From positions 3,671,001 through 3,735,000 of the forward strand of contig NZ_JAUOEO010000001.1 of the NCBI RefSeq assembly GCF_030540825.1: a DNA stretch of 64,000 bases, read 5' to 3'. Both the position numbers and the translations under genes were made by a program. Positions 23,353 through 43,324 of this stretch are shown here, piece after piece. The DNA is from Flavivirga spongiicola (lineage in GTDB: Bacteria > Bacteroidota > Bacteroidia > Flavobacteriales > Flavobacteriaceae). The notes beneath the pieces were generated by a model. The model saw only the letters and a list, made by a program, of their open reading frames with translations. It was not told the DNA's origin and ran no database searches. Each line of letters begins with the position of its first letter. The first letter of the stretch is position 1.

Positions 23353-23389
23353 TTCGACATTTTTTCTGTACGCTCTACTAAACGAGACT
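23353..23389. repeat. 37-bp direct repeat, left copy (PUL 2 flank)
   Basis: The 37 bases from TTCGACATTTTTTCTGTACG onward, ending AAACGAGACT, recur without mismatch at 43083-43119 in the same orientation. The flanking bases differ on both sides. The two copies are 19.7 kb apart and enclose exactly the ECF-sigma/SusCD/fucosidase locus. The right end of this copy touches the stop codon of the recombinase remnant. Confidence 0.9.
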
Positions 23390-23604
23390 CAAATACATTT
23401 TGTATTTGGGTTTTTCCTTTTGTAATGATCTTTAAATGAGTTAGTTAATTCAAAAATCATGTTGACTTTACTGGTTCGACATTCCTTATTTTTCAATGAA
23501 AATTTAAAACCCTCAGGAAATACAATATTTTGGAACACCCGTTTATCGTTATAATTTAAAGACTTATAGAATTCGCTGGGGTTAATACATATAATTTTTA
23601 TAGT
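23389..23604 (-). pseudogene. 3' remnant of a serine site-specific recombinase
   Basis: On the minus strand a 71-codon frame runs from just after a stop at 23605-23607 to a TGA at 23389-23391 and has no plausible start. It reads NPSEFYKSLNYNDKRVFQ, then NIVFPEGFKFSLKNKECRTS, then KVNMIF. This matches the pattern K-x-x-x-Q-x-x-x-F-P-x-G followed by R-T-x-x-x-N-x-I-F that I know from the C-termini of large serine recombinases in Bacteroidota. The catalytic N-terminal part is absent. It points to a past integration event at this junction. Confidence 0.6.
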
Positions 23605-23715
23605 TTAAGAAATTACTCTCAAGAGTATTAGCATGTTGTGGGAAAGAACTTTCTAAATTTTTGAAGGTTTAAATCTAAGTAGATAGATTTCATATATTTA
23701 TTTACTAATTATCTT

Positions 23716-23723
23716 TACATTTG
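23716..23723 (+). promoter_or_regulatory. Possible -7 element upstream of the ECF sigma gene
   Basis: TACATTTG fits the Bacteroidota -7 consensus TAnnTTTG and lies 21 bases before the ATG at 23745. No good -33 TTTG is visible at the usual distance, so the call is weak. Confidence 0.25.
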
Positions 23724-23744
23724 GGCAATATTTGATAGAAATTA

Positions 23745-24332
23745 ATGACTCTCACCAGGAAAAGAATAGATGAAGATTTGGTAGAAAGGCTTCGTAATAA
23801 CGATGAAGAGGCTTTATCTATTATTTACAAGGAATATTGGGAAATAATGTATTTGTCAGCTTATAATCTATTGAAAAACAGGGCTGTTAGTGAAGATGTT
23901 GTTCAGGAAGTATTTTTTTCTTTTTGGCAAAAACGAAGTACATTAGAAATTAAAGTATCTATTAGAAGTTATCTTTATACGAGTGTCACTTATAAGGTCT
24001 ACGACTATTTTAGAAAAAACAAAAAAATGATAAAAGAGGAGCTTTTTCAGCATTTTGATGAGAAAGTTCAAGCTCTAACTCCAGAAACTAAACTTATCCA
24101 TAAAGAATTAGTTGATTATATCGATTCGTTAATAACTCAATTGCCTCCAAAACGTCTGGAAGTATTTAAATTAAGTAGAGAAGAGCAGTTATCTAATCAA
24201 GAGATAGCGAAACGATTAGGTATTTCGAAGCGAACTGTCGAAGGACACATAACAAAGGCGTTGATATTTTTAAGAAGCTCACTTGGGGTTCATATAAGTA
24301 TTGAATTTCTATCCTTAATTTCCAATCCCTGA
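23745..24332 (+). CDS. ECF RNA polymerase sigma factor, FecI-like
   Basis: 195 residues. Region 2 is visible at about 20-90 (NNDEEALSIIYKEYWEIMYL, SEDVVQEVFFSFWQKR) and region 4 at about 130-180 (LPPKRLEVFKLSREEQLSNQ then EIAKRLGISKRTVEGHI, a helix-turn-helix). It belongs to the Bacteroidota sigma-70 family that pairs with FecR anti-sigma factors. The FecR gene follows 89 bp downstream, then a SusC with a signalling domain. Expected role: activating this locus when the SusC senses its glycan at the cell surface. Confidence 0.93.
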   Translation: MTLTRKRIDEDLVERLRNNDEEALSIIYKEYWEIMYLSAYNLLKNRAVSEDVVQEVFFSFWQKRSTLEIKVSIRSYLYTSVTYKVYDYFRKNKKMIKEELFQHFDEKVQALTPETKLIHKELVDYIDSLITQLPPKRLEVFKLSREEQLSNQEIAKRLGISKRTVEGHITKALIFLRSSLGVHISIEFLSLISNP

Positions 24333-24421
24333 ACGATATTATTTTTTAAACTCAAAAAAAATAAGCACAGAGTAGGTGTGCATCATTCTTTTTACGACAT
24401 GTATATAAAGGGGCGTAATAA

Positions 24422-25582
24422 ATGATGAGATTAAAACCTAAACAATACTTTATAGAATTATTGAATAAACTTTATGATGGTTCAATTACTAAAAAAGAAC
24501 TTGAAAAGCTATCATATTTTTTTCACAATAATCAGGAACTTAAAAGTTGGCCTGAACATTTTGGCTCAAAAACTGAAATAGAAGAAAGAATCTTCAGCAG
24601 GCTACAATCTGATATACACAAAGAATCATCTAAAGAGATTCGGGTAATCCCACTTTATAAAAAAGCGATTTTTAAATATTCCGTTGCGGCGTCCGTTGTT
24701 TTTTTAATTTCACTAACGTATTTTTTCAATAGAAATAATAGTACGCCATCTATAGTTAGCCCGACTATCGTTGAGGAAAACATTAAACCTGGTACTGATA
24801 AAGCGACCTTAACTTTGGAAGATGGTTCTGTAATAGAATTGGATAAATCACAGATGTACCAAAATAAAAATGTAAGGAGTAATGGGAGTCAAATTGTTTA
24901 TGAAACTAATGATGAAGCAACGAACGAGATAGTATACAATTACTTAACCATTCCAAGAGGGGGGGAGTATCACATAATCTTATCAGATGGAACCCAAGTC
25001 TGGCTTAACTCTGAATCGCAATTAAAATACCCAGTTAGTTTTATTGAAGGAGAAGTTAGACAGGTTGAACTTGTTTATGGAGAGGCATATTTTGATGTGT
25101 CCTCCAACATAGATCATAACGGGACCAAATTTATAGTAAATAATCAATCTCAGAAGATTGAGGTTTTGGGCACTGAATTTAATATTAAAGCGAATAAAAA
25201 TGAGATGAATATCTATACCACTTTAGTGGAAGGTGAGGTGATAATTAATGCGATTGGGAGTAAGCAAAAATTATTGCCTAATCAACAATCAAACCTGGAT
25301 ATTGAGAATAAAAATGTGACAATAGCAGATGTTGATGTAATTCCCGAGATTTCTTGGAAAAACGGATTATTTATTTTCAGGAACAAATCTCTAAAAGAAA
25401 TTATGAGAGTTATAGAAAGGTGGTATGATGTTGATATTGTTTTTGTTAATAAAGACTTGGAATCTGTAAAATTTAGAGGAGTTATAAAGAAACAGGTGAG
25501 CATAGAAGAGATTTTGACTATTATGAAGTCCAGTTCGATAAATAGTTACGATATAAATAATAGAACGATAATACTTAAATAA
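24422..25582 (+). CDS. FecR-type anti-sigma factor
   Basis: 386 residues. A cytoplasmic N-terminal part (1-77) is followed by one transmembrane helix (about 78-97, YSVAASVVFLISLTYFF). The periplasmic FecR domain (about 180-280) shows IPRGGEYHIILSDGTQVWLN and VEVLGTEFNIKA-like segments. A C-terminal DUF4974 domain follows (LKEIMRVIERWYDVDIVFVN). It holds the neighbouring ECF sigma factor inactive until the STN domain of the SusC at 25807 passes on the ligand signal. Start codons at 24422 and 24425 are both possible. The length is typical. Confidence 0.93.
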   Translation: MMRLKPKQYFIELLNKLYDGSITKKELEKLSYFFHNNQELKSWPEHFGSKTEIEERIFSRLQSDIHKESSKEIRVIPLYKKAIFKYSVAASVVFLISLTYFFNRNNSTPSIVSPTIVEENIKPGTDKATLTLEDGSVIELDKSQMYQNKNVRSNGSQIVYETNDEATNEIVYNYLTIPRGGEYHIILSDGTQVWLNSESQLKYPVSFIEGEVRQVELVYGEAYFDVSSNIDHNGTKFIVNNQSQKIEVLGTEFNIKANKNEMNIYTTLVEGEVIINAIGSKQKLLPNQQSNLDIENKNVTIADVDVIPEISWKNGLFIFRNKSLKEIMRVIERWYDVDIVFVNKDLESVKFRGVIKKQVSIEEILTIMKSSSINSYDINNRTIILK

Positions 25583-25806
25583 AACCTAAACTATACCTAC
25601 TGAATTGCAATATTTATTGAAGAACAGTTGTCTTGATAACCTAGAAATACAGAAAAAAAATAAACATTTAAATATTTATTAGCCTATGAAGTAAAAAAAC
25701 GATCAAAAAAAGGAAGATAAAGCTCAACTCGACAAAGTAAAAGACTCTATCTCCCTACGATTATTATTAATTAAAAAAATTTAACTAACAAATAACAAGC
25801 AAATTT

Positions 25807-28800
25807 ATGGAAAATAAATTAACTAACACAGACTTTCTTATATACAGAAAGCGGCTCTTATTATTTATTATGAGGACATTCATTTTCTTATGTTGTGCAA
25901 CTTTCTTTGCACTAACCCCTAATAATATTGTATCCCAGAATTCTAAAATTAAAATTGAGGAGGATAAAACGTTAACTGTAGACGAGGTTTTTGATTTAAT
26001 TATGAACCAAACGGATTATATATTCTTTTACGAAGAAGGATTATTTAAAGATTTTCCAAAATTAAGTTTAAAGAAGGGGACAATAAGAACAAATAGATTA
26101 TTAAGCAGGAGTTTGGCTAAAGGAAATTTAGACATTACTGTTACTGATAATAGAGGAATTGTTATAAAGAAAAAATCTTTAAAAATTGTAAAGAAAGAAC
26201 AGGAGAATCAAGTCTCAGGTATGATTACAGACTCAAATGGTGTCCCTATTCCTGGCGTTAATATTCTGCTTGTTGGAACAAATAAAGGAACTCAAACAGA
26301 TTTTGATGGAAAATACAAGATCAGTGCTAATGATGGTGACGTATTACGTTTTACATTTATTGGGTATAAAAGTGTAGATATTACTGTTGGGCCTCAAGCA
26401 GTTTACGATTTTGCTATGCAGGAAAGTGTTAGCAATTTAGAAGAAGTGGTAGTTGTTGGGTATGGTACTCAAAAAAGAACTACAGTAACTGGAGCTATTA
26501 CTACAATTAACGCTAAGGAATTAAAAACTGTTTCTGCTCCAAATGCTGCAATTGCCCTACAAGGTCGTGTGCCTGGTTTACAGATACTTAGTAGACCTGG
26601 CCCATTAGCTGGCCCTAGATATTTCCAATTAAGGGGAATTGGCTCTTTAGGTGTTGATAGTTCTCCATTGGTATTAGTTGATGGAGTACCTGGTGATATT
26701 AATTCAATTAATCCTGAGCAAATTGAAAATATTTCAATCTTAAAAGATGCTGCCACTACAGCAATTTATGGAGCTTCGGCTGCAGGGGGAATCATTTTAA
26801 TCACAACCAAGAGCGGAAAAAGTGGGAAAATAAATGTTGATGTTAAAATTAGACATGGAATTAATGATTTTGTAAACCTTTTAGAGCCTTTAACAGCTAG
26901 AGAACAAGGACTGTTAGTAAATGAATCTAGAATTAACGCTGGTCTTTCTCCTGCTTGGACTCCTCAACAAATTGAAGGTTTAGGAGCAGGTACTAATTGG
27001 ATAAAAGCTGTTACACGATCTGGAATGGTGAATGAAGCTAATTTACAAATATCCGGGGGAAATGATACTTCTAGATTTTTGTTAGCGTCTAATTATGTAA
27101 AAGAAGAAGGCGCACTTATAGGTAATTGGGTAGAGCGATTTAATACGCGACTTAAAGTAGATTTTGACTTGACAAGTTGGTTTAAATTAGGACTTAATGT
27201 TTTTGGGCAACATCAAAGAGGAAGAGGAGGCGCTAATTTTTGGAGCGCGGTGGAATATTCTTCTATTATACCAGAATTTTTGCCAGATGGAAGATATGGA
27301 ATTATAGACCCAACTATAGGAGGAGGTACATCTGGAGGTCAATCTGGAGGAGTAAACCCAGTACAGGCAGCGCTTGATGATAAATTTAGAGGGACATCTA
27401 ATTTCGATCCATCATATAACCTAAATACCATACTTACCGCAGAATTAAAATTCACCGAGTTTTTAAAATTCAATACAATTGTTAATTATGGGTATAATTT
27501 TCAATATAGAAAATCATTTTCCCCAGATTATAAAATATATGATGCTGGAGGAGAAGCAGGTGGAAATTTGATTTTTGAGAGAACACCCGAAAATAGAAGA
27601 GCAAGTGCTGGATTTGATTATGCACATAATTGGGGTCAACAAAGTTTTTTTTCATTTAATAAAATATTTAATGATGTTCACGATGTATCTGCAATTGTTG
27701 GTTTTCGTTCTTCTGAAAGTAACCAAGGAGCCAGAATTACTGCATCTAGAAGAGACTTCGCAAACAATGTTGTGCAAAATGTAGGACAAGGTAGTGGTGT
27801 TGGACAATCTGGTGGTGGATTTGACTATAATCCAACGACCAGTTTCTCTTATTTTGGAAAAATTGCTTATAGCTATGATAATAAATATTCATTTGAAGGA
27901 TCACTGAGTAGAGATGGTTCTGATAGGTTTGGTCCAAAAAATAAATTTGGATTATTTGGAGGCGTAGGGGCTTCTTGGCGTATTTCTGAAGAAGATTTTT
28001 TTAAAGAATTAGTCGGCGACAACATATCGCAAATGAAATTTCGTGCTAATTACGGGGTTGTAGGGAATGACAGAATTGGTCAATTTTTATATTATTCAAA
28101 GATAAATATTAACGGTAATGCTTATCCATTTGGGAATCCTCCTTTGGCAGCTTCTGCTGGTGCATATCAAGATGATGATGTGCTTCCAAATGAAAGCGTT
28201 AAATGGGAAACATTAAAATCCCTTAATATTGGAATGGATGTTTCTTTTTTGAAAAACTGGAATTTAAGTTTTGATTGGTATGATAAAACTACAGAAGATT
28301 TATTGTATAGAGTCCCAGTATCTTCAACAACAGCATTCTCGTCACAATGGCAAAATATTGGAAAACTTTCAAATAAGGGTATTGAAATATCATTAGGCTT
28401 TAATAAAACATTCAATAAGGATTTAGATATCTCATCTCGAGTAATATTTTCTAAAAACAAAAATGTAGTTAAAGAATTATTTAACGGAAGGGAGCGAATT
28501 GATGGGCGTCAAACTGCCATTGTTGTTGGCAAATCGGTAACTTCAATATTTGGATTAAAAGTACTGGGGATTTATGAAAGTCAAGCAGAGGTAGACGCTT
28601 CTCCTCATTTTGGTAATCCAGGACCTGGTGATTTTATTTATGAGGATAAAGATGGTGATGGTACAATTACTCAAAAAGATTATCAAGTTTTGGGAGATGC
28701 TGTTCCTAAAGGTTCTTTTTCATGGACTAATAAAATAGCATATAAGAATTTCGATTTGGGAGTTCATCTTACAGTAGACTATGGAGCACAGACATCACAA

Positions 28801-29193
28801 TGGGGTGAAGGAAAATTTCAGTTATCATTCTTAAATAGAAATAATTTAAGATACATAGTTGGTAGATGGCGTGGACCAGGAACAAGTACTAACATTTCGA
28901 GAGTACAAGCAGGTAATTTTTATAACGTTAGTGGATCTAGAGCACCAGCTTCAAATTTTGTTTCAGACTCAGATTTTATGAGAATTAGGCAAATCGAATT
29001 GGGATATAATTTACCCGATTATGTATTGGATAAACTTGGTGTTAAATCTTTGAGGATTTATGGAAACACAACCAACCCTTTTACATTTACTAAATTGTAT
29101 GGGTGGGATCCAGAATCGGGGCGTTCTAATCAACGTGGTGCAGAATCCCCTATATATAGAACCATTAATTTTGGTATTAATCTCAATTTTTAA
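25807..29193 (+). CDS. SusC-like TonB-dependent transporter with N-terminal STN signalling domain
   Basis: 1128 residues, longer than the region-3 SusC because of an extra signalling domain. Order: signal region (to about SQ44); STN domain (about 50-110, LTVDEVFDLIMNQTDYIFFY); carboxypeptidase-like domain (about 130-215, VSGMITDSNGVPIPGVNILL); TonB/plug region (EEVVVVGYGTQKRTTVTGAI, LVDGVPGDINSINPEQIENI, SILKDAATTAIYGASAAGGI); then the barrel to the terminal Phe. The STN domain fits transmembrane signalling to the FecR and sigma factor encoded just upstream. It imports oligosaccharides with the SusD 12 bp downstream. Confidence 0.96.
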   Translation: MENKLTNTDFLIYRKRLLLFIMRTFIFLCCATFFALTPNNIVSQNSKIKIEEDKTLTVDEVFDLIMNQTDYIFFYEEGLFKDFPKLSLKKGTIRTNRLLSRSLAKGNLDITVTDNRGIVIKKKSLKIVKKEQENQVSGMITDSNGVPIPGVNILLVGTNKGTQTDFDGKYKISANDGDVLRFTFIGYKSVDITVGPQAVYDFAMQESVSNLEEVVVVGYGTQKRTTVTGAITTINAKELKTVSAPNAAIALQGRVPGLQILSRPGPLAGPRYFQLRGIGSLGVDSSPLVLVDGVPGDINSINPEQIENISILKDAATTAIYGASAAGGIILITTKSGKSGKINVDVKIRHGINDFVNLLEPLTAREQGLLVNESRINAGLSPAWTPQQIEGLGAGTNWIKAVTRSGMVNEANLQISGGNDTSRFLLASNYVKEEGALIGNWVERFNTRLKVDFDLTSWFKLGLNVFGQHQRGRGGANFWSAVEYSSIIPEFLPDGRYGIIDPTIGGGTSGGQSGGVNPVQAALDDKFRGTSNFDPSYNLNTILTAELKFTEFLKFNTIVNYGYNFQYRKSFSPDYKIYDAGGEAGGNLIFERTPENRRASAGFDYAHNWGQQSFFSFNKIFNDVHDVSAIVGFRSSESNQGARITASRRDFANNVVQNVGQGSGVGQSGGGFDYNPTTSFSYFGKIAYSYDNKYSFEGSLSRDGSDRFGPKNKFGLFGGVGASWRISEEDFFKELVGDNISQMKFRANYGVVGNDRIGQFLYYSKININGNAYPFGNPPLAASAGAYQDDDVLPNESVKWETLKSLNIGMDVSFLKNWNLSFDWYDKTTEDLLYRVPVSSTTAFSSQWQNIGKLSNKGIEISLGFNKTFNKDLDISSRVIFSKNKNVVKELFNGRERIDGRQTAIVVGKSVTSIFGLKVLGIYESQAEVDASPHFGNPGPGDFIYEDKDGDGTITQKDYQVLGDAVPKGSFSWTNKIAYKNFDLGVHLTVDYGAQTSQWGEGKFQLSFLNRNNLRYIVGRWRGPGTSTNISRVQAGNFYNVSGSRAPASNFVSDSDFMRIRQIELGYNLPDYVLDKLGVKSLRIYGNTTNPFTFTKLYGWDPESGRSNQRGAESPIYRTINFGINLNF

Positions 29194-29205
29194 AAAAGAA
29201 TAATT

Positions 29206-30819
29206 ATGAAAAATAATAAATATATTTTATTTACTCTCATGGCAATAATTGTCATGGCAGTAACTTCTTGTCATGACGATTTTTTAGAAGTGCCGCCAAA
29301 CACAAATTTACCGAATGATGAATTTTGGAAAACTTCCAATGACGCTGTTTTTGGTGTAAATAGTATCTACCTAACACTAGCAGAAGGTTCTTTTCCGCTA
29401 TTTGGTACATATGGAGGAACTTTGAGATGGATAGATGTTTTATCGGATGATGCTATGTGGACATCAAATGCCACGGCTACTGCTTCAGGAGCTTGGGGTA
29501 ATATGGCTAACGGAATTGATCTGGCGGGAGATTTTGGTAGTTATTCTAATAGAACATGGACTTCATTTTATAAAATGATAAGTAGGGCCAATAATGCCAT
29601 AACAAAAATTGAAGGCATTGATATGGATACAGACCTTAAGAAAAGACTGATTGCAGAAGCTAAATTTTTTAGAGCCCATGCTTACCATAGATTATCTATT
29701 TATTATGGAGATGTACCCTTGTTACTTTTGCCTTTTGAAGAAGAAAACCCTGTGCCAGCAAGGGACCCTTACACCGAGGTTAGAGCGCAAATAATAAAAG
29801 ACCTTACTGAAGCTAGTGTAGATTTGCCAGTTTCTTATGGCAATGCTGATTTAGGTAGAATAACAAAAGGAGCTGCTTTAACAGCCTTAATGCAGGCCAA
29901 TATGTATACAGAAAATTGGGCAGAAGCTACGACAGCCGCAGAAGAAGTTATGAGTCTGGGTGTATATCAATTATTGCCAGATTTCTCCGATTTATGGATA
30001 CATGGTAATGAGGAGACCGTAGAATCTATTTGGGAAGTTCATTTTGGTTCAGATACTGGTGGAAATCTTGCGTTTTTTGGTGTTAGTGATTTTCCTTCAA
30101 CTGCTGGAGGAGGTGGAGGTTTTACTGGCTGGGGAGGATTTTCCACCCCTCAACAACAGTTGGTTAATGAGTTTGAAACAGCTATAGATAATGATAATGA
30201 TGGTGTTATAGATATAGCGACGCCATTTGACTCATCGAGTATAGGTAGTTTGTTTGATACAAATCAATATGTAAACAGAGATCCACGTTTGGCAGCTTCA
30301 ATTTGGTATAATGGAGCTGACTATTTTGGAGTACCATATGATCCTGACTTTGCTACCCAAAATAGTGGCTATCACTGGAAAAAAGGAAACGCTTCGCCAG
30401 CAGCAGATTTTCCAAATGGTAGACCTGAGTATAATACAATTATTTATCGTTATGCATATGTCCTTTTAGGTTTTGCCGAATCCAAGAATGAAGTTTCTGG
30501 TCCAGATGCATCTGTATATAGTGCTATAAACCAAGTTCGTCAAAGAGTTAATATGCCAGAGTTAGCTACAGGTTTAAACCAAGATCAAATGCGCGAAGCT
30601 ATTCGTCATGAGCGTAGAGTGGAGCTAGCAGGTGAAAATCACCGTCATGAAGATTTAAGACGTTGGGGACTATGGAAGCAAGCTATTGAGAATAGAGGAA
30701 TTAATAACGGAAGACAACAAGGTAGTGTGACAATTGCTCCAGGACATGAACTTTTTCCTATTTCACAAGGAGAATTGGATGCTAATCCAAATATGGTTCA
30801 AAACGAAGCGTATAAATAA
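29206..30819 (+). CDS. SusD/RagB family surface glycan-binding lipoprotein
   Basis: 537 residues with lipobox VTSC (Cys22), then DDFLEVPPNTNLPNDEFWKT, the usual start of mature SusD proteins. AEAKFFRAHAYHRLSIYYGD is the SusD TPR segment, and REAIRHERRVELAGENHRHE followed by DLRRWGLW is the C-terminal signature. A Gly-rich, presumably flexible insertion (STAGGGGGFTGWGGF) lies near residue 300. It acts with the SusC upstream as an outer-membrane glycan capture complex. Confidence 0.95.
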   Translation: MKNNKYILFTLMAIIVMAVTSCHDDFLEVPPNTNLPNDEFWKTSNDAVFGVNSIYLTLAEGSFPLFGTYGGTLRWIDVLSDDAMWTSNATATASGAWGNMANGIDLAGDFGSYSNRTWTSFYKMISRANNAITKIEGIDMDTDLKKRLIAEAKFFRAHAYHRLSIYYGDVPLLLLPFEEENPVPARDPYTEVRAQIIKDLTEASVDLPVSYGNADLGRITKGAALTALMQANMYTENWAEATTAAEEVMSLGVYQLLPDFSDLWIHGNEETVESIWEVHFGSDTGGNLAFFGVSDFPSTAGGGGGFTGWGGFSTPQQQLVNEFETAIDNDNDGVIDIATPFDSSSIGSLFDTNQYVNRDPRLAASIWYNGADYFGVPYDPDFATQNSGYHWKKGNASPAADFPNGRPEYNTIIYRYAYVLLGFAESKNEVSGPDASVYSAINQVRQRVNMPELATGLNQDQMREAIRHERRVELAGENHRHEDLRRWGLWKQAIENRGINNGRQQGSVTIAPGHELFPISQGELDANPNMVQNEAYK

Positions 30820-30842
30820 TTAAATTTATAAATTTTAATATT

Positions 30843-31205
30843 ATGAAAAAATATATAATAGTAGCTTTTATTTTGGTTTGTTCTTTAGGGGTATTATCCT
30901 GTTCAAAAGCAGAAGAGCATGACTTGGAATATGAATACCCTACAATACTAACAATTGCGGGAAGTAACAATATAACAGTTGGAGCAGCTGGATTTACCAC
31001 AGATTATTATACCTATTATTTAGGGTCTTCGGTTACGTTAACTTGGACGTCTTCTTCTCCAACAGATGTTACAATTACTCAAATACCTGAAGATTCTACA
31101 GGTGCAACATTCTTCTTTAAACCCAGTGCAGCAGGAAAAACGATAACAGTTACTGTTACGGCTTCCAATGGTGTTGTGGGAACTAGAGAAGTGACGGTCA
31201 ATTAA
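30843..31205 (+). CDS. Small Ig-like lipoprotein, candidate surface glycan-binding protein
   Basis: 120 residues with lipobox VLSC (Cys20). The mature 100 residues form one beta-rich domain (SVTLTWTSSSPTDVTITQI, TFFFKPSAAGKTITVTVTAS) like bacterial Ig-like or PKD domains. It starts 23 bp after SusD, where most loci encode a larger SusE/SGBP protein. One Ig-like domain is unusually small for that role, so it may be a minimal binding protein or a spacer domain left by shortening. A terminator follows. Confidence 0.75.
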   Translation: MKKYIIVAFILVCSLGVLSCSKAEEHDLEYEYPTILTIAGSNNITVGAAGFTTDYYTYYLGSSVTLTWTSSSPTDVTITQIPEDSTGATFFFKPSAAGKTITVTVTASNGVVGTREVTVN

Positions 31206-32877: not shown

Positions 32878-32894
32878 ATACCAGTGCACAACAA

Positions 32895-32996: not shown

Positions 32997-33011
32997 AAAT
33001 AATAAAACAAA

Positions 33012-34364: not shown

Positions 34365-34390
34365 AGACTGGTAAACATTTGCTAACAAAA

Positions 34391-34502: not shown

Positions 34503-34567
34503 TTACAAGAAACGAAATAATAAAAAAATGAAACTTTATCTTAAGAATACTTATTAAAACAGACATA

Positions 34568-37500
34568 ATGTATAGAAAATATATGATAGTAATTCTAACT
34601 GTAATTTTAATAATAAATGCACAGGCACAGGAGATGTATAATAATGAGAAAAGTTCATTGGTTGCCTCAGAAGAAAGGATCTTGGTAGAGCAATTAGAAT
34701 TGGACACTAATAGAATTACAGATAATATCCTCCCCATAATTCTCGAAAACGCACATTTTGATAGAAATTCTCTGATTACTTTCGGTAAGCGTTATACGAC
34801 AGCTTATAAAACATTAAATAAGAATGATGAGCCTAAGCCAAGTAACAAACCGGATTGGTTGTTAGATGGTACGTCATACAAAGCCAATGTGTATAAAGGG
34901 AAGCGTAGTGACGAAATCATAATGTCTAACGGGTTGCTAAGAAGAGTTTTTAGAATAAAACCCAACGCCGCGACCGTAAGATTGGATAATCTTGTAACGG
35001 GAGAGTCGTTGCTTAGGGGCGTGAAGCCTGAGGCTATTGTGAAAATTAATGGTATAAACTATGAGATTGGAGGTCTTAAAGGGCAACCTAATTACGCCTT
35101 TCTAAAGGAAGAATGGTTAGATGGGATGACTTCTGATGCTTCTGCCATGAAATTTGTAGGTTTTAAAATTAGTAAGCCAAAAAAACCATTTGGATGGAAA
35201 CGTTTTGGGGCTCATAATACAGATGCAGAGTGGCCTCCTAAAGGGGTTCACTTGCAAATGGATTATGCTCTGCCAAGCGATGAAGATCTTATAAAAGGCA
35301 CTAGTATTTTACCAAGCAGTTACGGAAGGCAACAGCTTTATAAAACAAATTTTAATACTTTAGATGATGGTTGGAGAACACATTACTCTTCCTCTCATGA
35401 GCGTTCTTCTTTTGAGAATGAAGGAAAAATTGGAGAAATCTATACACCTCAAAATACTACAGTTTATGTAGAGCGAGTGCTAAATGCTGATACTAGAATT
35501 ATTGAAGCAACATTTAATGCCGGAACAGATAAAACCAAAGATTATGGACCAGGTATTGCGCTTGTATGGCCAGACAAAACGTTAAAATTTTATTTACGCC
35601 CAGGACCCAACATAGAAGGTATACCAACATTTGGACTTTGGGATGGTAAGCGTCATAATTATGCTGTTGGGGGACAAAAACCTTTCGATATAAACCAGCC
35701 ATGGACGTTACGCTTAAGGATAGCAGATGATGGTGTATATTGTGAAGCTAAATCTAAAGATGGAGAGTGGCGAACATTGCAAAAATTACCCACTTTTAAG
35801 ACCATGCCTTCAGAAGTACGTATAGGAAAAACCAATGCAAAAGGTATTGGGGAGGATTTAAAAGAATCTCAGGGAGAATTAGCACGCCTTCAAGTAATGG
35901 ATTTTTCACTTTACGGTGTACTAAAATCTAATAATAAGTCTGCTTTAAAATCAGGTGATCTAACTGTTTCAGTTCATTACGAACTTTATGATGGTATTCC
36001 GGTTATGGGCAAATGGTTAACACTTAAAAACAATAGTGATAAGGAAATTACTGTAGATAAATTTACAAGTGAAATCATCGCAGCTATCGAATATACTTCT
36101 ACAGTTAATATTGATGGTATGCCAGATGCTTATCCCAATATTCATGTAGAAACCGATTATGCCTTTGCTAGTATGAATGTAGAAGGTGCTAATAGGCATG
36201 TGGTAAAATGGTTAACAGATCCAGATTATGCAACACAAGTCAATTACCTCAGGGTAACACCTTGTTTGCTTAATGTCGGTCCAGAATTAGGGCCAGATCG
36301 AAAGGTTAAGCCTAATGAAACATTTAAAACATTTAGAACATTTGTTTTACCACATGATAGTTTCGATAGGGAGCGCCAAGGTCTCTCCATTAGAAAAATG
36401 TATCGAACGTTAGCACCTTGGACGACAGAAAATCCATTAATGATGCACGCACGTTTTTCAGATTGGGATCGGGTCAAGCTTGCAATAGACCAAGCTTCAG
36501 AGGTAGGTTTTGAGATGGTTATTCTTACGTTCGGTAGTAGTTTTAATATGGAAGATGATAGCCCTGAATATTTGGTTAAAATGAAAAAATATGCCGACTA
36601 TGCCAAAAGTAAAGGGATCGAAATTGGGGGATATTCGTTGTTGGCTTCACGTAAAGTTGGGGGCGGTAATGATGTGGTCATGCCTCCCGGAAGGCGACCT
36701 AATTTTGGTAACTCCCCTTGCTTAGAAAGCTCATGGGGACAAGATTATTTTAGAAAACTATACAATTTTTATAAACAAACAGGTTTTAAGTTGCTAGAAC
36801 ACGATGGTTCATACCCAGGAGATATATGTGCTTCTACAGAACATCCTGGTCATAATGGTTTGGAAGATTCTAGGTGGAAACAATACGAAAAGATTTCAAA
36901 ATTCTATCAATGGTGTAGAGAACAAGGTATAGTTCTTAACATACCCGATTACTATTATTTAGCAGGAGGGAATAAGTGTGGTATGGGATATCGCGAGGTT
37001 AACTGGAGCCTCCCCAGAAATCAACAACTGATTCATGCTCGTCAAAATATATACGATGGCACATGGCAAAAAATGCCTAGTATGGGCTGGATGTTTGTAC
37101 CATTAACAGAATATCATGGTGGTGGTGCGGCGGCTACTATCGAGCCTTTAAATGAACACTTAGACCATTACGAGTCTATGATGGTAAGTACTCTGGGTGC
37201 TGGTGTACAAGCATTTTACCGTGGCCCAAGACTTTATGATACTAACAAAACCAAAACCATGGTTACTAATGTGGTTAATTGGTTTAAGGAACATCGCGAA
37301 GTTTTAGAGGGCGATATCATTCACCTTAGAAGACCGGATGGTCAAGATTTGGATTATTGGCTAAGCGTAAACCCACAAAGTAAAGAAAAAGGCATGTTAA
37401 TGGTCTATAATCCTTTAAAAGAAGCTGTTGTAAAGAAAATAAAAGTGCCTCTTTATTATACAGGATTGAAAGACAGGACCGTAATTAAATCAAAAGAAGG

Positions 37501-37594
37501 CTTGTTAAAAACTTATACTTTAAATAGGGATTATTCAATAGAAATCGAAGTAAAAGTACCAGCTAATAGTTATACGTGGTATGTAATGGAATAA
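34568..37594 (+). CDS. Large secreted glycoside hydrolase resembling clan GH-D (alpha-galactosidase-like), with inserted lectin-like domain
   Basis: 1008 residues with a signal peptide ending AQAQ (21). An N-terminal beta-supersandwich (about 100-260; SNGLLRRVFRIKPNAATVRL) is interrupted by a jelly-roll-like insertion at about 265-450 (FNTLDDGWRTHYSSS, LRPGPNIEGIPTFGLWDGKR, GEWRTLQKLPTFK). A TIM-barrel region follows (about 600-900), with FEMVILTFGSSFNMEDD and GFKLLEHDGSYPGDICAST. Asp746 there occupies the place where GH27/GH36 enzymes carry their nucleophile. The C-terminus is a small beta domain. The resemblance to GH36-type enzymes is by pattern only, and a separate or new family is possible. 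Neighbours suggest action on a fucosylated glycan. Confidence 0.6.
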   Translation: MYRKYMIVILTVILIINAQAQEMYNNEKSSLVASEERILVEQLELDTNRITDNILPIILENAHFDRNSLITFGKRYTTAYKTLNKNDEPKPSNKPDWLLDGTSYKANVYKGKRSDEIIMSNGLLRRVFRIKPNAATVRLDNLVTGESLLRGVKPEAIVKINGINYEIGGLKGQPNYAFLKEEWLDGMTSDASAMKFVGFKISKPKKPFGWKRFGAHNTDAEWPPKGVHLQMDYALPSDEDLIKGTSILPSSYGRQQLYKTNFNTLDDGWRTHYSSSHERSSFENEGKIGEIYTPQNTTVYVERVLNADTRIIEATFNAGTDKTKDYGPGIALVWPDKTLKFYLRPGPNIEGIPTFGLWDGKRHNYAVGGQKPFDINQPWTLRLRIADDGVYCEAKSKDGEWRTLQKLPTFKTMPSEVRIGKTNAKGIGEDLKESQGELARLQVMDFSLYGVLKSNNKSALKSGDLTVSVHYELYDGIPVMGKWLTLKNNSDKEITVDKFTSEIIAAIEYTSTVNIDGMPDAYPNIHVETDYAFASMNVEGANRHVVKWLTDPDYATQVNYLRVTPCLLNVGPELGPDRKVKPNETFKTFRTFVLPHDSFDRERQGLSIRKMYRTLAPWTTENPLMMHARFSDWDRVKLAIDQASEVGFEMVILTFGSSFNMEDDSPEYLVKMKKYADYAKSKGIEIGGYSLLASRKVGGGNDVVMPPGRRPNFGNSPCLESSWGQDYFRKLYNFYKQTGFKLLEHDGSYPGDICASTEHPGHNGLEDSRWKQYEKISKFYQWCREQGIVLNIPDYYYLAGGNKCGMGYREVNWSLPRNQQLIHARQNIYDGTWQKMPSMGWMFVPLTEYHGGGAAATIEPLNEHLDHYESMMVSTLGAGVQAFYRGPRLYDTNKTKTMVTNVVNWFKEHREVLEGDIIHLRRPDGQDLDYWLSVNPQSKEKGMLMVYNPLKEAVVKKIKVPLYYTGLKDRTVIKSKEGLLKTYTLNRDYSIEIEVKVPANSYTWYVME

Positions 37595-37628
37595 CTATAA
37601 AATTTTTAATTTGATAATTATAGCAATC

Positions 37629-39719
37629 ATGAAAAAAATCAATTCATCGCTTTTAATGTTAGTAGTTTTTTTTGTAACCTCCTGTTCTAATATTTCAGTA
37701 GAAAAAGAAATTACCATTTCTACCTTACTTAACGAAATTGTAGACCGTGAGCAAATAGCAGAATTCCCTACAAATAACTATAAATCCTTGCAAGCTAGCA
37801 GTTACAATAGAGAATCAGTTTCATCAGATAAACCCGGTTGGTTTGCAGATAGTGATGGCATAGGTTTTATCCGAACAGAGGAAAACAATGGAAAAAAAGA
37901 ATGGGTTATCATGGAAGATGATGGACCAGGTGTTATTACTAAGATTTGGGCTGTATGTTTTTACTATGGTTTTAATAATAAGACGGGACCTAACATTAAC
38001 ATTTACCTAGATGGTGAAATTACACCAACCATTTCTACAAATTTTTTCAAACTAATAAAGGGACTGGATTTTGTAAAAGCACCACTTGCAGATGAGTCAG
38101 CCAGAGCAGGAAACTTATATTTTCCTATACCGTATGCTAAGAGTTGTAAGATTACGATGGATAACAAGGCTTCTTATAACATCATTAATTACAGAAAATA
38201 TCCAACAGGAACAAAGGTTAAGACTTTTTCAATGGAAGCGTTTAAGCAAACATCTGAACTACAAAAAAAAGTAGCACATGTTTTAGATACCAGACCAGAA
38301 CCAAAAGGAGAGAAAACCACTATAGTGAGAACCCTAGAAAAAGGAGATCAAATAGCTATGAGCCTGGATAGGGGGCTTGCTATTAAGCAACTGGAAATCA
38401 AACTGGATAAAACCGAAGATATGGCTCAAGCACTTCGTTCGGTGGCATTGAAAGCTACTTTTGATGGAGAGCAAACAGTATGGGTTCCTGTGGGTGATTT
38501 TTTTAACAATGTAGGTAAAGTAAGGGCATACGATATGTGGGAACGTTCTGTAAAAGCAAATGGCACTATGGTTTGTCGTTGGGTGATGCCTTTTGAAAAA
38601 GAAGCCCAATTATATCTTGAAAATATGGGAGACCTAAGTGTAAAAGCAAAGTTAACAGTGACCACAGACGAATATAAATGGACAGAAAATTCCATGCATT
38701 TTTACGCGACCTGGCAAATGGATGATCCCGTGCCTACATTTCCATTATTTGATTACAATTTTTTAGAAGCTCAAGGTAAAGGGGTGATTGTCGGTGATGA
38801 GTGGTCTGTATTGAACCCTATTGAAGGTTGGTGGGGAGAAGGTGATGAAAAAATATATATTGACAATGATATAGAAAAAAACTTCCCATCTCATTTTGGA
38901 ACAGGCACGGAAGATTATTATGGATGGGCAGGAGGTGTAGTACCTACTCCGACAGATGAGTTTGCCAAACCATTTTTGGGAAATATTATTGTAGGAGAAC
39001 AAAAATCTAAAGGATATAATGTTTGCACAAGAACACGTGTTTTGGATGCAATTCCTTTTAATAAGCAAATACAATTTGATATTGAATCATCGTGCGGTAA
39101 GCGTAGTAAATCTCATTTTTTACAATATGCTCAAACTACATTTTGGTATGGTATACCCGGAGTAAAGCACAATAGAGAACCTTTGCCAGAATTTGCGTCG
39201 GCAAAGTTACCATCTATTGAAGATTTAGAAAAGGAAATAGAAAAAGCCAAAGGGTCACAATATATTGTTGAAGGGGCTTTGGAAGCAGAATTACTTCCAA
39301 TTATTGAAAAAAGTGATAAGGTCAAGGAGAATTTCAGTGAAATTCCAATGTGGGGGGAAATAAGCTCTGGATCCATGAAAAACATATGGTTTGAACAGCC
39401 AGGAGATTTTGCAGAGTTAAAAATTACAGAACAGTTTGAAAAATCTAAAATTAGTATCTGCGCAGCTGTAGGACCAAACAGTGGTAGTTTTGATGTCTAT
39501 GTTAATGGAATCAAAAAAATCACCCAAGATTTTTATACCCATCATGAAGGCATTACAAATCCGTATTTAGATTTGGGAGATTGTGAACCTTTAAACAATG
39601 CTTTTATAGTTCGATTTGAATATAAAGGGAACCATTTGAAATCTAGATCAACTAAAAACAAACATGCCTTGGGTCTTGATTTCTTTTTAATTGATAATAA
39701 TTTTATGAATAGAAATTAG
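37629..39719 (+). CDS. GH172 (DUF2961) family lipoprotein with C-terminal beta-sandwich
   Basis: 696 residues from the ATG at 37629; an upstream TTG at 37611 would spoil the signal. Lipobox VTSC (Cys19). The DUF2961 core shows EWVIMEDDGPGVITKIWAV, INIYLDGEITPTIS, WWGEGDEKIYIDND and the signature GTGTEDYYGWAGG. GH172 enzymes act on furanosides, with difructose-dianhydride and arabinofuranoside activities known. After the core, residues about 560-696 add a beta-sandwich (IWFEQPGDFAELKITEQFEK, GSFDVYVNGIKK), which is probably carbohydrate-binding. The second GH172 nearby lacks it. The furanose substrate here is unknown. Confidence 0.85.
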   Translation: MKKINSSLLMLVVFFVTSCSNISVEKEITISTLLNEIVDREQIAEFPTNNYKSLQASSYNRESVSSDKPGWFADSDGIGFIRTEENNGKKEWVIMEDDGPGVITKIWAVCFYYGFNNKTGPNINIYLDGEITPTISTNFFKLIKGLDFVKAPLADESARAGNLYFPIPYAKSCKITMDNKASYNIINYRKYPTGTKVKTFSMEAFKQTSELQKKVAHVLDTRPEPKGEKTTIVRTLEKGDQIAMSLDRGLAIKQLEIKLDKTEDMAQALRSVALKATFDGEQTVWVPVGDFFNNVGKVRAYDMWERSVKANGTMVCRWVMPFEKEAQLYLENMGDLSVKAKLTVTTDEYKWTENSMHFYATWQMDDPVPTFPLFDYNFLEAQGKGVIVGDEWSVLNPIEGWWGEGDEKIYIDNDIEKNFPSHFGTGTEDYYGWAGGVVPTPTDEFAKPFLGNIIVGEQKSKGYNVCTRTRVLDAIPFNKQIQFDIESSCGKRSKSHFLQYAQTTFWYGIPGVKHNREPLPEFASAKLPSIEDLEKEIEKAKGSQYIVEGALEAELLPIIEKSDKVKENFSEIPMWGEISSGSMKNIWFEQPGDFAELKITEQFEKSKISICAAVGPNSGSFDVYVNGIKKITQDFYTHHEGITNPYLDLGDCEPLNNAFIVRFEYKGNHLKSRSTKNKHALGLDFFLIDNNFMNRN

Positions 39720-39745
39720 ACATAATAAAATAAATTTAAATATAG

Positions 39746-39872
39746 ATGAGATTTTATAAAGGTGTTTTATCATTTATCGTTCTGTTTTCATTTGAAACAT
39801 TCATAACTAAAAACGTTAATCATGCAGAAAGTTAATTATGTAAACGATGCATGGCAATTAAAAAAACAATAA
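39746..39872 (+). pseudogene. Possible remnant of a deleted exported-protein gene
   Basis: An ATG at 39746 opens 29 codons that look like a signal peptide (MRFYKGVLSFIVLFSFETFI) and stop at 39833. A second, frame-shifted frame from 39822 reads MQKVNYVNDAWQLKKQ and stops at 39872. Together they look like the 5' end of a gene that lost its body, leaving the 163-bp gap between the two GH172 genes. This is weak; random sequence is a fair alternative. Confidence 0.25.
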
Positions 39873-39882
39873 ATATAAACAG

Positions 39883-41154
39883 ATGAAAAACAATTTAATA
39901 TTATTAGTAACTGTATTGATAATGAGTTGTAATAGCTCGAAGAAGGACAATACTTTTTTACTTTCAGACATTCAAGAATATTATAAAGCTGCACCAGATG
40001 GTGTGGAAACTCGTTGGTATAGTTCAGAAAACAAAAAGGGAGAAAAAGGCAAAGGAGGAATGACCAATAAAGGTGCTAAGGGAGATGCATTTACAATGAT
40101 TGGGCCAGGTGATAAAACGGTAATTTTGGATTATAATGGTGCTGGTATTATTACAAAAATATGGTCGGCAAACTCAATACAATGGGTAGAAGAAGATCGA
40201 CGAAAATTAAGCATTAATATGTATTGGGATGGTGAGGAAAAACCAGCTGTGTCTGTCCCATTTACTGATTTTTTTGGTGTCGGCTTAGGCTTAACAAGCA
40301 CTTTTGAAAATAAATTCTTTGCCATGCCAGAAGGACGTTCATTTAACTGTGCAATACCTATGCCATTTCGTAAAGCCGCTAAGGTTGAAATTGTAAATGA
40401 GTCTGACAAGTTTATCATGTTCTATTATAAGATCAATATGGTTAAAATTCCAAAATTGGATGATAACGCTTTATATTTTCACGCCTATTGGAATAGAGAT
40501 ACAGCCACTGTTAAGGGGGTTGATTATGCAATCTTACCTAAAATAGAGGGAAGAGGACGATATTTAGGAACTAATATTGGTGTTATTGGCAGTGAAAAAT
40601 ATAAAGGAACTTGGTTTGGAGAAGGAGAAGCAAAAATCTTTCTAGACGGCGATACTAAGTATCCTACGTTAGTGGGCACAGGAACCGAAGATTATATTGG
40701 CACTGGTTGGGGACAAGGAGAATATGCCAATAGAATTCAAGGAAGTACAGTATCTAATAGAAAACATGATATATATACCTTTTATCGTTTTCATACCTAC
40801 GACCCTGTTTACTTTCATAATGATTGTCGTGTAACTATTCAACAAATTGGGAATTCAAGAAAAGGAGGAATTATAAGATTAAATAAAAATGGTGCAGACA
40901 TAACACCTGTGTGGTCTTATGTCGAAAAGGATGGTTATGATGCTGCTAAGCGGTATTTAGATATGGAAAATCCTCCCGCATTAGAGAGTGAGGAATTCCC
41001 TGGTGCATCATCTACAAATTTTTATAGAAGTGATGATGTATCAGCTACCGCTTATTTTTATTTAGACAAGCCATCATCTAATCTTCCTACTTTACCTTCT
41101 GTAGATTTAAGAGTTAAGCATATTAAGGAAAAAGTATTTGATAAATTAAAATAA
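39883..41154 (+). CDS. GH172 (DUF2961) family lipoprotein
   Basis: 423 residues with lipobox IMSC (Cys16). The DUF2961 core is complete: GVETRWYSSENKKG, FTMIGPGDKTVILDYNGAGI followed by ITKIWSAN, LSINMYWDGEEKPAVSVPFT, TWFGEGEAKIFLDGD and the signature GTGTEDYIGTGWGQGEY. It ends soon after the core, so it is a single-domain version of the family, unlike the longer GH172 at 37629. Two distinct GH172 proteins side by side suggest two furanoside linkages or a two-step removal. The cell location is the periplasm or outer membrane. Confidence 0.87.
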   Translation: MKNNLILLVTVLIMSCNSSKKDNTFLLSDIQEYYKAAPDGVETRWYSSENKKGEKGKGGMTNKGAKGDAFTMIGPGDKTVILDYNGAGIITKIWSANSIQWVEEDRRKLSINMYWDGEEKPAVSVPFTDFFGVGLGLTSTFENKFFAMPEGRSFNCAIPMPFRKAAKVEIVNESDKFIMFYYKINMVKIPKLDDNALYFHAYWNRDTATVKGVDYAILPKIEGRGRYLGTNIGVIGSEKYKGTWFGEGEAKIFLDGDTKYPTLVGTGTEDYIGTGWGQGEYANRIQGSTVSNRKHDIYTFYRFHTYDPVYFHNDCRVTIQQIGNSRKGGIIRLNKNGADITPVWSYVEKDGYDAAKRYLDMENPPALESEEFPGASSTNFYRSDDVSATAYFYLDKPSSNLPTLPSVDLRVKHIKEKVFDKLK

Positions 41155-41247
41155 AAAGATATTAAATGCTAATTATGTAATCTTAGTTTAAGATCACTTA
41201 TTGATTTGCATCCAGTACAAGCATTATACTTTCAAAATCAATTTACT

Positions 41248-42873
41248 ATGCGTTATTATTTATATTCGTTTATTCTAATCTTATTATTAAGTAGTTGCTC
41301 AGAAAAAAATAAAACATTTGTAGAATCGGAAATTTCAATAATTCCCAGGCCTGTTAAACTTGTTTTAGCCGAGGAATCTTTTGCTTTTAAAGAAGGTCTT
41401 CAGATTCACATAAACTCTGAAGAACAAAAAACAGCAGCTAATTACCTTATAGGTCTTATTAATAAAACAGCGGGCTACCAGTTAGAATTAAAAGAAAATC
41501 AAGGTGCTTCTATAGTCTTCGAAAAAATGGATGGACTACAGCCAGAAGCCTATCAATTGGATGTCACACCTAAACAAATAACTGTTAAAGCAAGTGATGC
41601 AGCAGGGTACTTTTACGGAGTACAATCGATTCATCAGTTATTGTCAAAAGAAGTTTCAGATGAAACTAAAAAAACAAAATGGTTAGTCCCATCGCTGTCA
41701 ATTACGGATGCACCACGATTTAAATGGCGAGCATATATGTTGGATGAGTCACGTTATTTTCATGGCGAGGAATTTGTAAAGCAAATGTTGGATCAAATGG
41801 CATTGCTAAAGATGAACGTATTTCATTGGCATTTAGTTGATGATGCTGGGTGGCGAATAGAAATAAAAAAATATCCGTTGTTAACAGAAATTGGAGCATT
41901 CCGTAAGGATACAGAAATTGAATGGTGGGGTAGTGGTAAAACTTCTGGAGAACCACATGGAGGTTTTTATACTCAACAGCAGATTAAAGATATTGTTGCC
42001 TATGCATCTGAAAGAAATATTACGGTAGTTCCAGAATTTGAAATGCCTGGTCACTCCAGTGCTGCCATAGCCGCTTATACCTGGTTAGGTACCGCAGGTG
42101 TTGATATAGATGTACCCGTGAAATTTGGAAGATTATATGATAATTATGATGTGACCAAACCAGAAGTTATCCAATTTATTAAGGATGTATTATTAGAAAT
42201 TTTTGAAATATTTCCTTCCGAAGTGATTCATATTGGAGGTGATGAAGTGGGTTATAAAGTTTGGGAGGAATCAAAACCTGTTCAAAAATACATGAAAGAA
42301 AATGGTATAAAAACACCAGCAGATTTGCAGATAGATTTTACTAATAAAATTTCTAAATTTATAGAACGAAATGGACGTAGAATGATGGGGTGGAATGAAA
42401 TTATGGGGGTTAACATTCATGAAGGATTTAAAGAAAAGAAACATGATAAAGCAGCCGAAACCGAATTGGCTAAAAATGTAGTGGTACACTTTTGGAAAGG
42501 TAATTTGAAACTCGCTACTGAAGCTGCTGAAAAAGGATACGGTATCGTTAATTCTATTCATACCCATACGTATTTAGATTATAATTATAATGATATAAGT
42601 TTAGAGAAAGCTTATAAATTTAATCCAATCCCTAAAGGATTGGACGAGCAATATCATAAAAACATATACGGATCTGGTTGCCAAATGTGGAGTGAATGGA
42701 CACCTACAAATCCTGATGTTGAACGTCAAACATTCCCAAGAATAGCCGCATACGCAGAAGTGGGGTGGACAAAGCTGGAAAAAAAGGATTTTGAAAGTTT
42801 TAAAATAGCTTTGAAAAAATTGCAAAAATATTGGAGTTCATTAGGTATTAATTATCAAGTGATTAAATTTTAG
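41248..42873 (+). CDS. GH20 beta-N-acetylhexosaminidase lipoprotein
   Basis: 541 residues from the ATG at 41248, giving a lipobox LSSC (Cys17); an in-frame TTG lies 14 codons upstream. The N-terminal GH20b domain is followed by the TIM barrel with MNVFHWHLVDDAGWRIEIKK, VVPEFEMPGHSSAAIAAY and the catalytic pair Asp332-Glu333 in HIGGDEVGYKVWEE. The enzyme removes terminal beta-linked GlcNAc or GalNAc by substrate-assisted catalysis. It is the last gene of the region-2 locus, followed by a terminator, and shows that the target glycan contains N-acetylhexosamine. Confidence 0.95.
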   Translation: MRYYLYSFILILLLSSCSEKNKTFVESEISIIPRPVKLVLAEESFAFKEGLQIHINSEEQKTAANYLIGLINKTAGYQLELKENQGASIVFEKMDGLQPEAYQLDVTPKQITVKASDAAGYFYGVQSIHQLLSKEVSDETKKTKWLVPSLSITDAPRFKWRAYMLDESRYFHGEEFVKQMLDQMALLKMNVFHWHLVDDAGWRIEIKKYPLLTEIGAFRKDTEIEWWGSGKTSGEPHGGFYTQQQIKDIVAYASERNITVVPEFEMPGHSSAAIAAYTWLGTAGVDIDVPVKFGRLYDNYDVTKPEVIQFIKDVLLEIFEIFPSEVIHIGGDEVGYKVWEESKPVQKYMKENGIKTPADLQIDFTNKISKFIERNGRRMMGWNEIMGVNIHEGFKEKKHDKAAETELAKNVVVHFWKGNLKLATEAAEKGYGIVNSIHTHTYLDYNYNDISLEKAYKFNPIPKGLDEQYHKNIYGSGCQMWSEWTPTNPDVERQTFPRIAAYAEVGWTKLEKKDFESFKIALKKLQKYWSSLGINYQVIKF

Positions 42874-42911
42874 ATTTCAAAATAGTAACGAACTAAGATT
42901 AAAGGACAGAA

Positions 42912-42953
42912 CCACAAGTCGAATTCATGACCTTCTGAGGTTGTGGGTTTTTT
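42912..42953 (+). terminator. Intrinsic terminator after GH20
   Basis: CCACAA (42912-42917) pairs with TTGTGG (42941-42946), followed by GTTTTTTATT. The loop is 23 bases. It lies 39 bases after the GH20 stop and closes the region-2 locus. Confidence 0.65.
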
Positions 42954-43082
42954 ATTGTCTACTATTATGCTCTACTCGATGCGGACTTGAATTCTTAAAA
43001 TTATTTAGTTTTGACATCTAAACCAATTGTTAGGTTTTGTCTTAATGAATCAAATTTACCCAACTCTGAAATTAATAATTGA

Positions 43083-43119
43083 TTCGACATTTTTTCTGTA
43101 CGCTCTACTAAACGAGACT
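43083..43119. repeat. 37-bp direct repeat, right copy (PUL 2 flank)
   Basis: Identical over 37 bases to 23353-23389 and in the same orientation. It lies about 130 bases after the GH20 terminator, so the two copies bracket the whole region-2 locus with its regulators. Confidence 0.9.
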
Positions 43120-43298: not shown

Positions 43299-43324
43299 TT
43301 GAATATTTTCAATTCAATTCATTA

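Follow-up and report, generated by a model that had tools for sequence, protein, structure and literature searches.

The streptococcal rumA integrative and conjugative elements (ICEs) use a single serine integrase; one copy of a direct repeat is found within the target gene and its counterpart within the integrase gene. When such an element integrates, the 3′ parts are exchanged and the C terminus of the integrase is altered, which is a precedent for a C-terminal swap (PMC4701971). For islands that occupy tRNA genes, the 2014 Islander paper notes that no serine recombinases were known that target such genes (PMC4383910). A 2026 paper on TIGER/Islander data pairs serine and tyrosine integrases with attachment (att) sites, often in tRNA genes, and in the available part of that text we found nothing specific about serine integrases located at tRNA genes (PMC12884075). 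In gut Bacteroidetes, SusC/SusD loci are known on chromosomal mobile elements, with 47 reported (PMC6907783), and exchange of polysaccharide utilization loci (PULs) between Bacteroidota has been confirmed experimentally (PMC13188876). Here we analyze a stretch of 64,000 nucleotides from Flavivirga spongiicola (GCF_030540825.1, contig NZ_JAUOEO010000001.1, positions 3,671,001 to 3,735,000; referred to below as the window), in which a SusC/SusD (SusCD) locus is bracketed by an exact 37-bp direct repeat.

Based on comparisons with other genomes of the family, we conclude, with a probability of roughly 80%, that positions ~23382 to 43111 (19.73 kb) represent a single unit of an integrative element that has decayed and whose family is driven by a large serine recombinase (LSR), with the SusCD polysaccharide locus as cargo. 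In the intact members of this family that we examined, the recombinase gene occupies the left end, and its 3′ end overlaps the 3′ end of tRNA-fMet in antisense (attL). Its native C-terminal tail of 22 to 25 residues is found at the opposite, right end (attR), and in most copies a terminator-like hairpin resembling those that follow tRNA-fMet comes after it. We place attP inside the 3′ end of the recombinase gene because the motif tail is in frame with the recombinase in all three intact elements (by comparison of the printed frames). With attP at this place, integration exchanges the native tail for a tRNA-derived tail. Within the att site, the 37-mer is the stretch with the highest conservation. 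In the window, decay of the recombinase, which we suppose was once carried with this cargo, has left a C-terminal fossil next to the left att copy, and the cargo remains.

The sequence TTCGACATTTTTTCTGTACGCTCTACTAAACGAGACT is present exactly, and on the + strand, at positions 23353 to 23389 and 43083 to 43119, as a sequence-only reading of the window had reported, and none of 100 dinucleotide-shuffled windows contains a 37-bp match. A genome-wide search, which that reading had proposed, finds the 37-mer in the F. spongiicola genome (G000; 4 contigs, 5,901,487 bases) at only two places at ≤3 mismatches, both inside the window; a looser pattern detects two further, diverged places (C1:4571190 and C1:1300362). 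Among 397 family genomes the full 37-mer is found only in this one, and an exact 25-mer of the repeat has no match in the genome contig and viral contig collections. The flanks of the two copies had been called unrelated, which is incorrect: the copies are 79% alike over 73 bp because both are part of related recombinase tails. On the minus strand, both window copies translate to SRLVERTEKMSN and the C1:1300362 copy translates to LVERTEKMAN; at the DNA level the latter is like the window copies over 63 to 77 bp (79 to 86%), which extends past the 37 bases. The 37-mer itself consists of the start of the tail, the core CTCTACTAA, and 8 bases of the left end of the element.

The two boundaries of the unit are summarized in Table 1. 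A left-end model built from five other genomes, with the window excluded, matches positions 23380 to 23499 (E=3.9e-26), and it is this type of sequence that lies directly after tRNA-fMet or its fragment in those five genomes. The fossil within it is 80% identical over 66 amino acids to the intact recombinase of Marixanthotalea marina (G226) and 63% identical over 62 amino acids to that of a second genome, G422, with a profile match at 23374 to 23619 (E=5.1e-32). The end of the recombinase abuts the left att site in the orientation typical of the family, and on the minus strand the left 37-bp copy comes directly after the fossil protein end NIVFPEGFKFSLKNKECRTSKVN. The recombinase debris noticed earlier at the left copy is real and belongs to the element. 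At the other end, the reciprocal att half (native tail and core) is present at 43039 to 43119, where the right copy consists of tail, core, and 8 left-end bases and is followed by an arm of ~165 bp and then by the end of a tRNA-Arg(UCU). Positions 23382 to 43111 thus run from left end to right end in the order of the family. The tail model, made from 18 tails, contains both window copies. The tail to the left of the unit is presumably the right end of a neighboring element, A. A junction of the order tail, core, and left end would be expected from successive insertion of two elements at one site, which suggests that the island probably lay in a tandem array and was later moved away from tRNA-fMet.

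Table 1. Features of the island and its boundaries (positions in the window)
Feature	Position	Strand	Basis
Native C-terminal LSR tail, right-end (attR-type) half, peptide LVERTEKMSNPLIFIELKKFNILK followed by stop	23311..23381	-	nhmmer model of 18 tails, E=7.2e-13; translation
Left 37-bp copy: tail start (minus strand), core CTCTACTAA, first 8 bases of left end	23353..23389	+	
Element left end: AAACGAGACTCAA, hairpin, reversed recombinase 3′ end	23380..23499	+	left-end model
LSR fossil, C terminus, 71 amino acids, truncated, out of frame with tail	23392..23604	-	80% over 66 amino acids
ECF sigma factor	23745..24332	+	Pfam
FecR anti-sigma factor	24422..25582	+	Pfam
SusC-like TonB-dependent receptor	25807..29193	+	Pfam
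SusD-like lipoprotein	29206..30819	+	Pfam
Open reading frame of 120 amino acids, no family above cut-off	30843..31205	+	
GH29 alpha-L-fucosidase	31522..32877	+	Pfam
GH29-like alpha-L-fucosidase	33012..34364	+	Pfam
Protein of 1008 amino acids, no Pfam or NCBIfam match	34568..37594	+	
DUF2961 protein, GH172-type	37611..39719	+	Pfam (DUF2961)
DUF2961 protein, GH172-type	39883..41154	+	Pfam (DUF2961)
GH20 beta-hexosaminidase	41206..42873	+	Pfam
Native LSR tail at right end of unit, LVERTEKMSNQLLISELGKFD..., stop displaced (36 codons)	43039..43111	-	nhmmer, E=8.9e-15
Right 37-bp copy, attR-type	43083..43119	+	exact match
Conserved ~165-bp arm between att core and tRNA-Arg scar	43112..43276	+	sequence comparison
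3′ 22 nucleotides of tRNA-Arg(UCU), identical	43277..43298	+	
Sequence with hairpin terminator	43299..43402	+	resembles post-tRNA-Arg sequence in G398 and G400

The suggestion that the locus is a genomic island holds in the sense that att sites delimit the unit. A simple target-site duplication does not describe the repeat, which contains an att core and carries recombinase tail in both copies. No protein with Resolvase and Recombinase domains lies at an end of the unit, the window having the 71-amino-acid fossil alone, and PF00239 (serine recombinase) has no match in the entire genome, so the unit can probably no longer move by itself. The fossil, the tail, and the right-flank open reading frames have no match better than E=0.29 in NCBIfam and PHROGs. 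No relative of the recombinase debris was found among phage records, plasmid records, and viral contigs, and none of the tail peptide among viral contigs and in the protein database.

The three intact LSRs (547, 545, and 545 amino acids), each with Resolvase and Recombinase domains, come from G422, M. marina, and Yeosuana marina (G322), respectively. The M. marina and Y. marina enzymes are 71% identical to the G422 enzyme and 86% identical to each other. Their sites are tRNA-fMet in G422 and M. marina and a 44-nucleotide 3′ fragment of it in Y. marina. In G422, the 547-amino-acid frame continues into the antisense of tRNA-fMet, where it ends in LESHLVAGTGLEPVTFGL, and a motif copy lies downstream; all three have the motif downstream and frames that run on into antisense tRNA. 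The native C-terminal tail (LVERTEKMSNLLISELEKF to the stop) is located at the far end of these elements and not on the recombinase gene. When the three recombinases were used as queries against genome records, 28 loci were found, two of which (L221 and L222) are the query genomes themselves. At 14 of the 28, BLAST places tRNA-fMet at the 3′ end of the recombinase, counting L222 with its 44-nucleotide fragment, L226 with 20 nucleotides at a contig end, and L245 with a broken recombinase frame. Nine more have tRNA-Leu(CAA) there according to ARAGORN, which was run on 25 of the 28. This leaves five loci: L234 (a short contig with a Leu-type tail, outside the ARAGORN scan), L241, L244, and L247 (cut by contig ends), and L248 (decayed). 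G402 contains a fragment of a recombinase of this family that is identical to one in a Flavivirga rizhaonensis record. In G200 (L173:709-980), a recombinase fossil of 83 amino acids is joined to a partial tail at the bases ATGTCGAACC, which are common to the recombinase gene and the tail.

Since the full 37-mer matched only the F. spongiicola genome, a relaxed 29-base pattern was used for the family search. At ≤3 mismatches it is found at 18 places in 11 of 396 family genomes, and the reversed control pattern is found in none of the 396. These motif copies behave like the start of a short coding tail. A stop follows after 22 to 25 codons in 16 of the 18, including the left window copy (the exceptions are the right window copy, with 36, and G322b, with 31); in 2,000 shuffles, the average was 1.8 and the highest value was 8 of 18. 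Variation is greatest at third codon positions, with 0.44 bits versus 0.21 and 0.18 in codons 1 to 10 and 1.02 bits versus 0.82 and 0.69 in codons 11 to 21, and the sole internal gap in the alignment is three bases long. By eye, a hairpin and a run of T follow 15 of the 18 copies, as they do downstream of tRNA-fMet genes, and in G019 the motif flank is almost identical to the sequence after the tRNA-fMet of G240.

The position of tRNA-fMet was determined in 20 genomes, including all 11 that carry the motif. Nine of the 11 (12 of the 18 places) have the motif 4.6 to 56 kb downstream of tRNA-fMet or a fragment of it, on the same contig and strand; the linked landmark in G447, G322, and G240 is a 3′ fragment of 43 to 44 nucleotides. 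The left end lies at the tRNA or fragment in five of the nine linked genomes (G422, G226, G200, G322, and G240), where the tRNA sequence is followed by (T)AAAYGAGACTCA-type sequence and a hairpin and then, in four of them, by a visible reversed recombinase end. This comparison indicates that the att family is tied to tRNA-fMet.

We searched 13 bracketed units (excluding that of G200) by tblastn for SusC, SusD, and LSR, with the window proteins, the SusC and SusD proteins of G019 and G322, and the M. marina recombinase as queries; ~0.1 kb of the G240 unit is missing at joins. Four of the 13 contain both SusC and SusD: the window unit, G019 (18.6 kb), G322 b-c (15.7 kb), and G447 f-b (15.4 kb). 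The G019 unit encodes GH3, GH16, GH5, and two GH30 enzymes, SusCD, and a Y_Y_Y/LuxR-type regulator, and the G322 b-c unit encodes a hybrid sensor, a sugar transporter, GH32, SusCD, GH36, and a PfkB kinase. An intact LSR is present in three units (G322 f-a, G226, and G422, the last of which has SusD alone), and LSR fossils are present in the window, G019, and G240 units, with that of G019 ~1.1 kb inside the left end. The G397 unit carries an AcrB-type pump. In the G322 f-a unit (L214:2089 to L168:12648), the intact LSR at the tRNA-fMet fragment is followed by nitrous oxide reductase genes (nos propeller repeat, NosL, and NosD). Near the M. marina recombinase, an open reading frame shows a resemblance to the mobilization protein NikA that falls short of the Pfam cut-off (22.9 versus 27 bits), a hint that the intact elements may be mobilizable.

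Several observations weigh against reading the window locus as LSR cargo. The window has no tRNA gene, and the tRNA-fMet of this genome is at C1:1335054. Six of the 18 motif places are unlinked to tRNA-fMet, namely, both window copies, both copies in G019 (a draft of ~80 contigs), the G049 copy, and the second of the two G200 copies (428 kb away). In G447, G059, G397, and F. spongiicola itself, other sequence follows tRNA-fMet or its fragment, so that their left ends are lost or displaced. At the right copy, the 8 left-end bases are followed by an unrelated arm, so the outer side has been rearranged, and a deletion fusing the ends of two elements could yield the same map. The SusC and SusD pair is absent from 9 of the 13 units, and none of the 13 combines it with an intact LSR. 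The G+C content of the coding sequence contrasts little with that of the neighbors (0.351 in the island versus 0.334 and 0.340). Finally, the sequence-only reading had proposed looking for relatives in which the two flanking loci, PUL 1 and PUL 3, adjoin. Such an empty site is not seen among the matches listed for 11 other genomes of the genus or in the stretches mapped, and neither flanking locus is whole there; among the matches listed for the 12 genus genomes, partial synteny is seen for PUL 1 in G403 and for PUL 3 in G399.

One alternative is that two independent scars of dead LSR elements flank a resident locus, the bodies of the elements having been deleted and the locus never having been cargo. 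This fits the missing LSR body and the scar of another element that follows the right copy, and the genome does have motif copies with no known relation to cargo (C1:1300362 and C1:4571190); the lack of a unit with both an intact LSR and SusC and SusD points the same way. However, the inner flanks are a left end on the left and a right end on the right, in the order and orientation of the family, the open reading frames between them are the locus itself, and the same bracket surrounds SusC and SusD in G019, G322, and G447. We therefore consider independent scars improbable.

The tRNA-Arg end beyond the right copy raises the question of a second element. The fragment noticed earlier at this place is genuine, but it is not part of the island: it is separated from the att site by an arm of ~160 bp and appears to be a second, separate integration scar. 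The sequence after it (43299 to 43402) is 81% like the sequence directly after tRNA-Arg(TCG) in G398 and, over 82 nucleotides, 84% like a stretch ~100 bp after tRNA-Arg(ACG) in G400. The arm is found again at 85% at C1:4571k, and parts of it are 74% alike at C1:4591k and in G049. It probably represents the end of a second family of elements. (The coordinates are 43112-43402 in the window, G000:C1:4571017-4571188, C1:4591365-4591568, and G049 L146:1564-1693.) The arm ends in a tRNA-Arg 3′ end, with a terminator besides in the window and G049; in these two it adjoins the att core, with different Arg tRNA ends. The C1:4571k and 4591k copies are 20 kb apart in the same orientation. A different serine recombinase family overlaps or adjoins the 3′ ends of tRNA-Arg(TCT) and tRNA-Leu(CAA) (G399; L125:379-453, C1; L130, C6). 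It is conceivable that an element targeting tRNA-Arg imported the locus and that the LSR att site is merely nested within it: the order tail, core, arm, and tRNA-Arg end is present in G049 too, and the recombinase at tRNA-Arg(TCT) in the congener G399 means that such elements occur in the genus. In contrast, the left boundary sequence contains no partner for the tRNA-Arg end at 43277 and instead has an LSR end of the tRNA-fMet type, and we regard this origin as very unlikely. The other alternative, a scattered intergenic repeat or a regulatory or RNA element that flanks the locus by chance, would suit the terminator-like hairpins beside most copies and the recurrence of the motif in other genomes, but we reject it almost entirely given the copy number (two in the genome at ≤3 mismatches, with two more diverged), the lack of an Rfam match at the gathering threshold in the window, the distribution of the motif in the family, the codon-like conservation, the fixed tail length, the tRNA-fMet linkage, and the continuity of frame with the recombinase.

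As the probable remnant of an LSR element with a SusCD cargo, the unit shares features with each of three known systems. Like the rumA ICEs, the family has a serine integrase, a repeat in both target and integrase genes, and a changed C terminus; unlike them (a protein-gene target, repeats of 2 to 21 bp, conjugative, and streptococcal), it lies at tRNA 3′ ends in Flavobacteriaceae, and the window unit has no conjugation gene (PMC4701971). As in Islander-type islands, members of this family lie between a tRNA gene and a far-end att marker, but Islander-type islands have tyrosine integrases and leave a displaced tRNA fragment, whereas here the far-end motif copies carry the recombinase tail and no displaced fragment of the same tRNA is found there (PMC4383910). 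The serine recombinases described here do sit at tRNA genes, a placement that the 2014 paper called not known (PMC4383910). Like the PUL-carrying elements of the gut, the unit would place a SusC/SusD locus on a chromosomal mobile element; those elements are from gut species, and serine integrases of Bacteroidetes appear only in integrative and mobilizable elements (12 clusters) in that survey, as far as its available text goes (PMC6907783). No LSR element at tRNA-fMet carrying a PUL was found in the open-licence literature by title and start of abstract, among the matches listed.

Gain and loss of PULs in marine Flavobacteriaceae are usually argued from gene trees. The signature described here, a recombinase-tail attR together with a recombinase 3′ end at a tRNA attL, marks both ends of an island within a few bases. 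It can outlast the recombinase, and it would escape searches for displaced tRNA fragments. A bolder proposal, which we hold only tentatively and think is rather unlikely as a whole, is that a family of serine recombinases targeting tRNA 3′ ends (fMet and Leu, with a separate recombinase for Arg) shuttles whole SusCD loci and that the swap of tails is a built-in switch, by which the activity, stability, or direction of the recombinase would differ between the circular and the integrated form. The effect of the C-terminal swap on the enzyme is open to direct test.

The genes enclosed by the repeat are those listed by the sequence-only reading, with the added detail that there are two GH29 and two DUF2961 genes (we take the latter to be GH172) as well as the open reading frames of 120 and 1008 amino acids. 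By Pfam, the cargo has the SusC/SusD pair, glycoside hydrolases, and regulator that define a PUL. The relaxase and conjugation genes that would define an ICE have no Pfam match at E≤0.001 among the genes of 23745 to 42873. The 1008-amino-acid protein has a relative of 1201 amino acids in L069 (71% identical over 949 amino acids), and several island enzymes (34753 to 42834) have paralogues that are 72 to 83% alike at the DNA level at C1:135132-142758, 186259-187551, and 223838-225441. To the left of the island are PL8, sulfatase, and GH88 genes and a TRAP transporter, and to the right are genes for an esterase, a hybrid two-component sensor, SusCD, a sulfatase, GH2, and GH3. The adjacency of GH29 and esterase genes in G400 and G401, considered as an argument against the right boundary, belongs to a different locus, in which GH3 lies between the GH29 pair and the esterase. 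The TRAP transporter genes dctPQM (20309 to 23003) have an 89% copy at C1:3517726-3520424 of the same genome.

Contigs C3 and C4 have no match to the motif or to the left end. The small contig C4 (G000:C4:1-23157; L109 and L110) joins two stretches that resemble C1 and C2 regions, one 99.98% like C1:3657549-3666603 (mid SusC to mid sensor gene) and the other 99.6 to 99.96% like C2:405008-415309. Its first 3.1 kb (FecR and the start of SusC) have no such match among the own-genome stretches compared. C4 is either an assembly chimera or a structural variant. Farther to the left in the window, an inverted repeat at 8105 to 8175, between the PL8 gene and the next gene, has 29-nucleotide arms that are 90% complementary and a 13-nucleotide loop.

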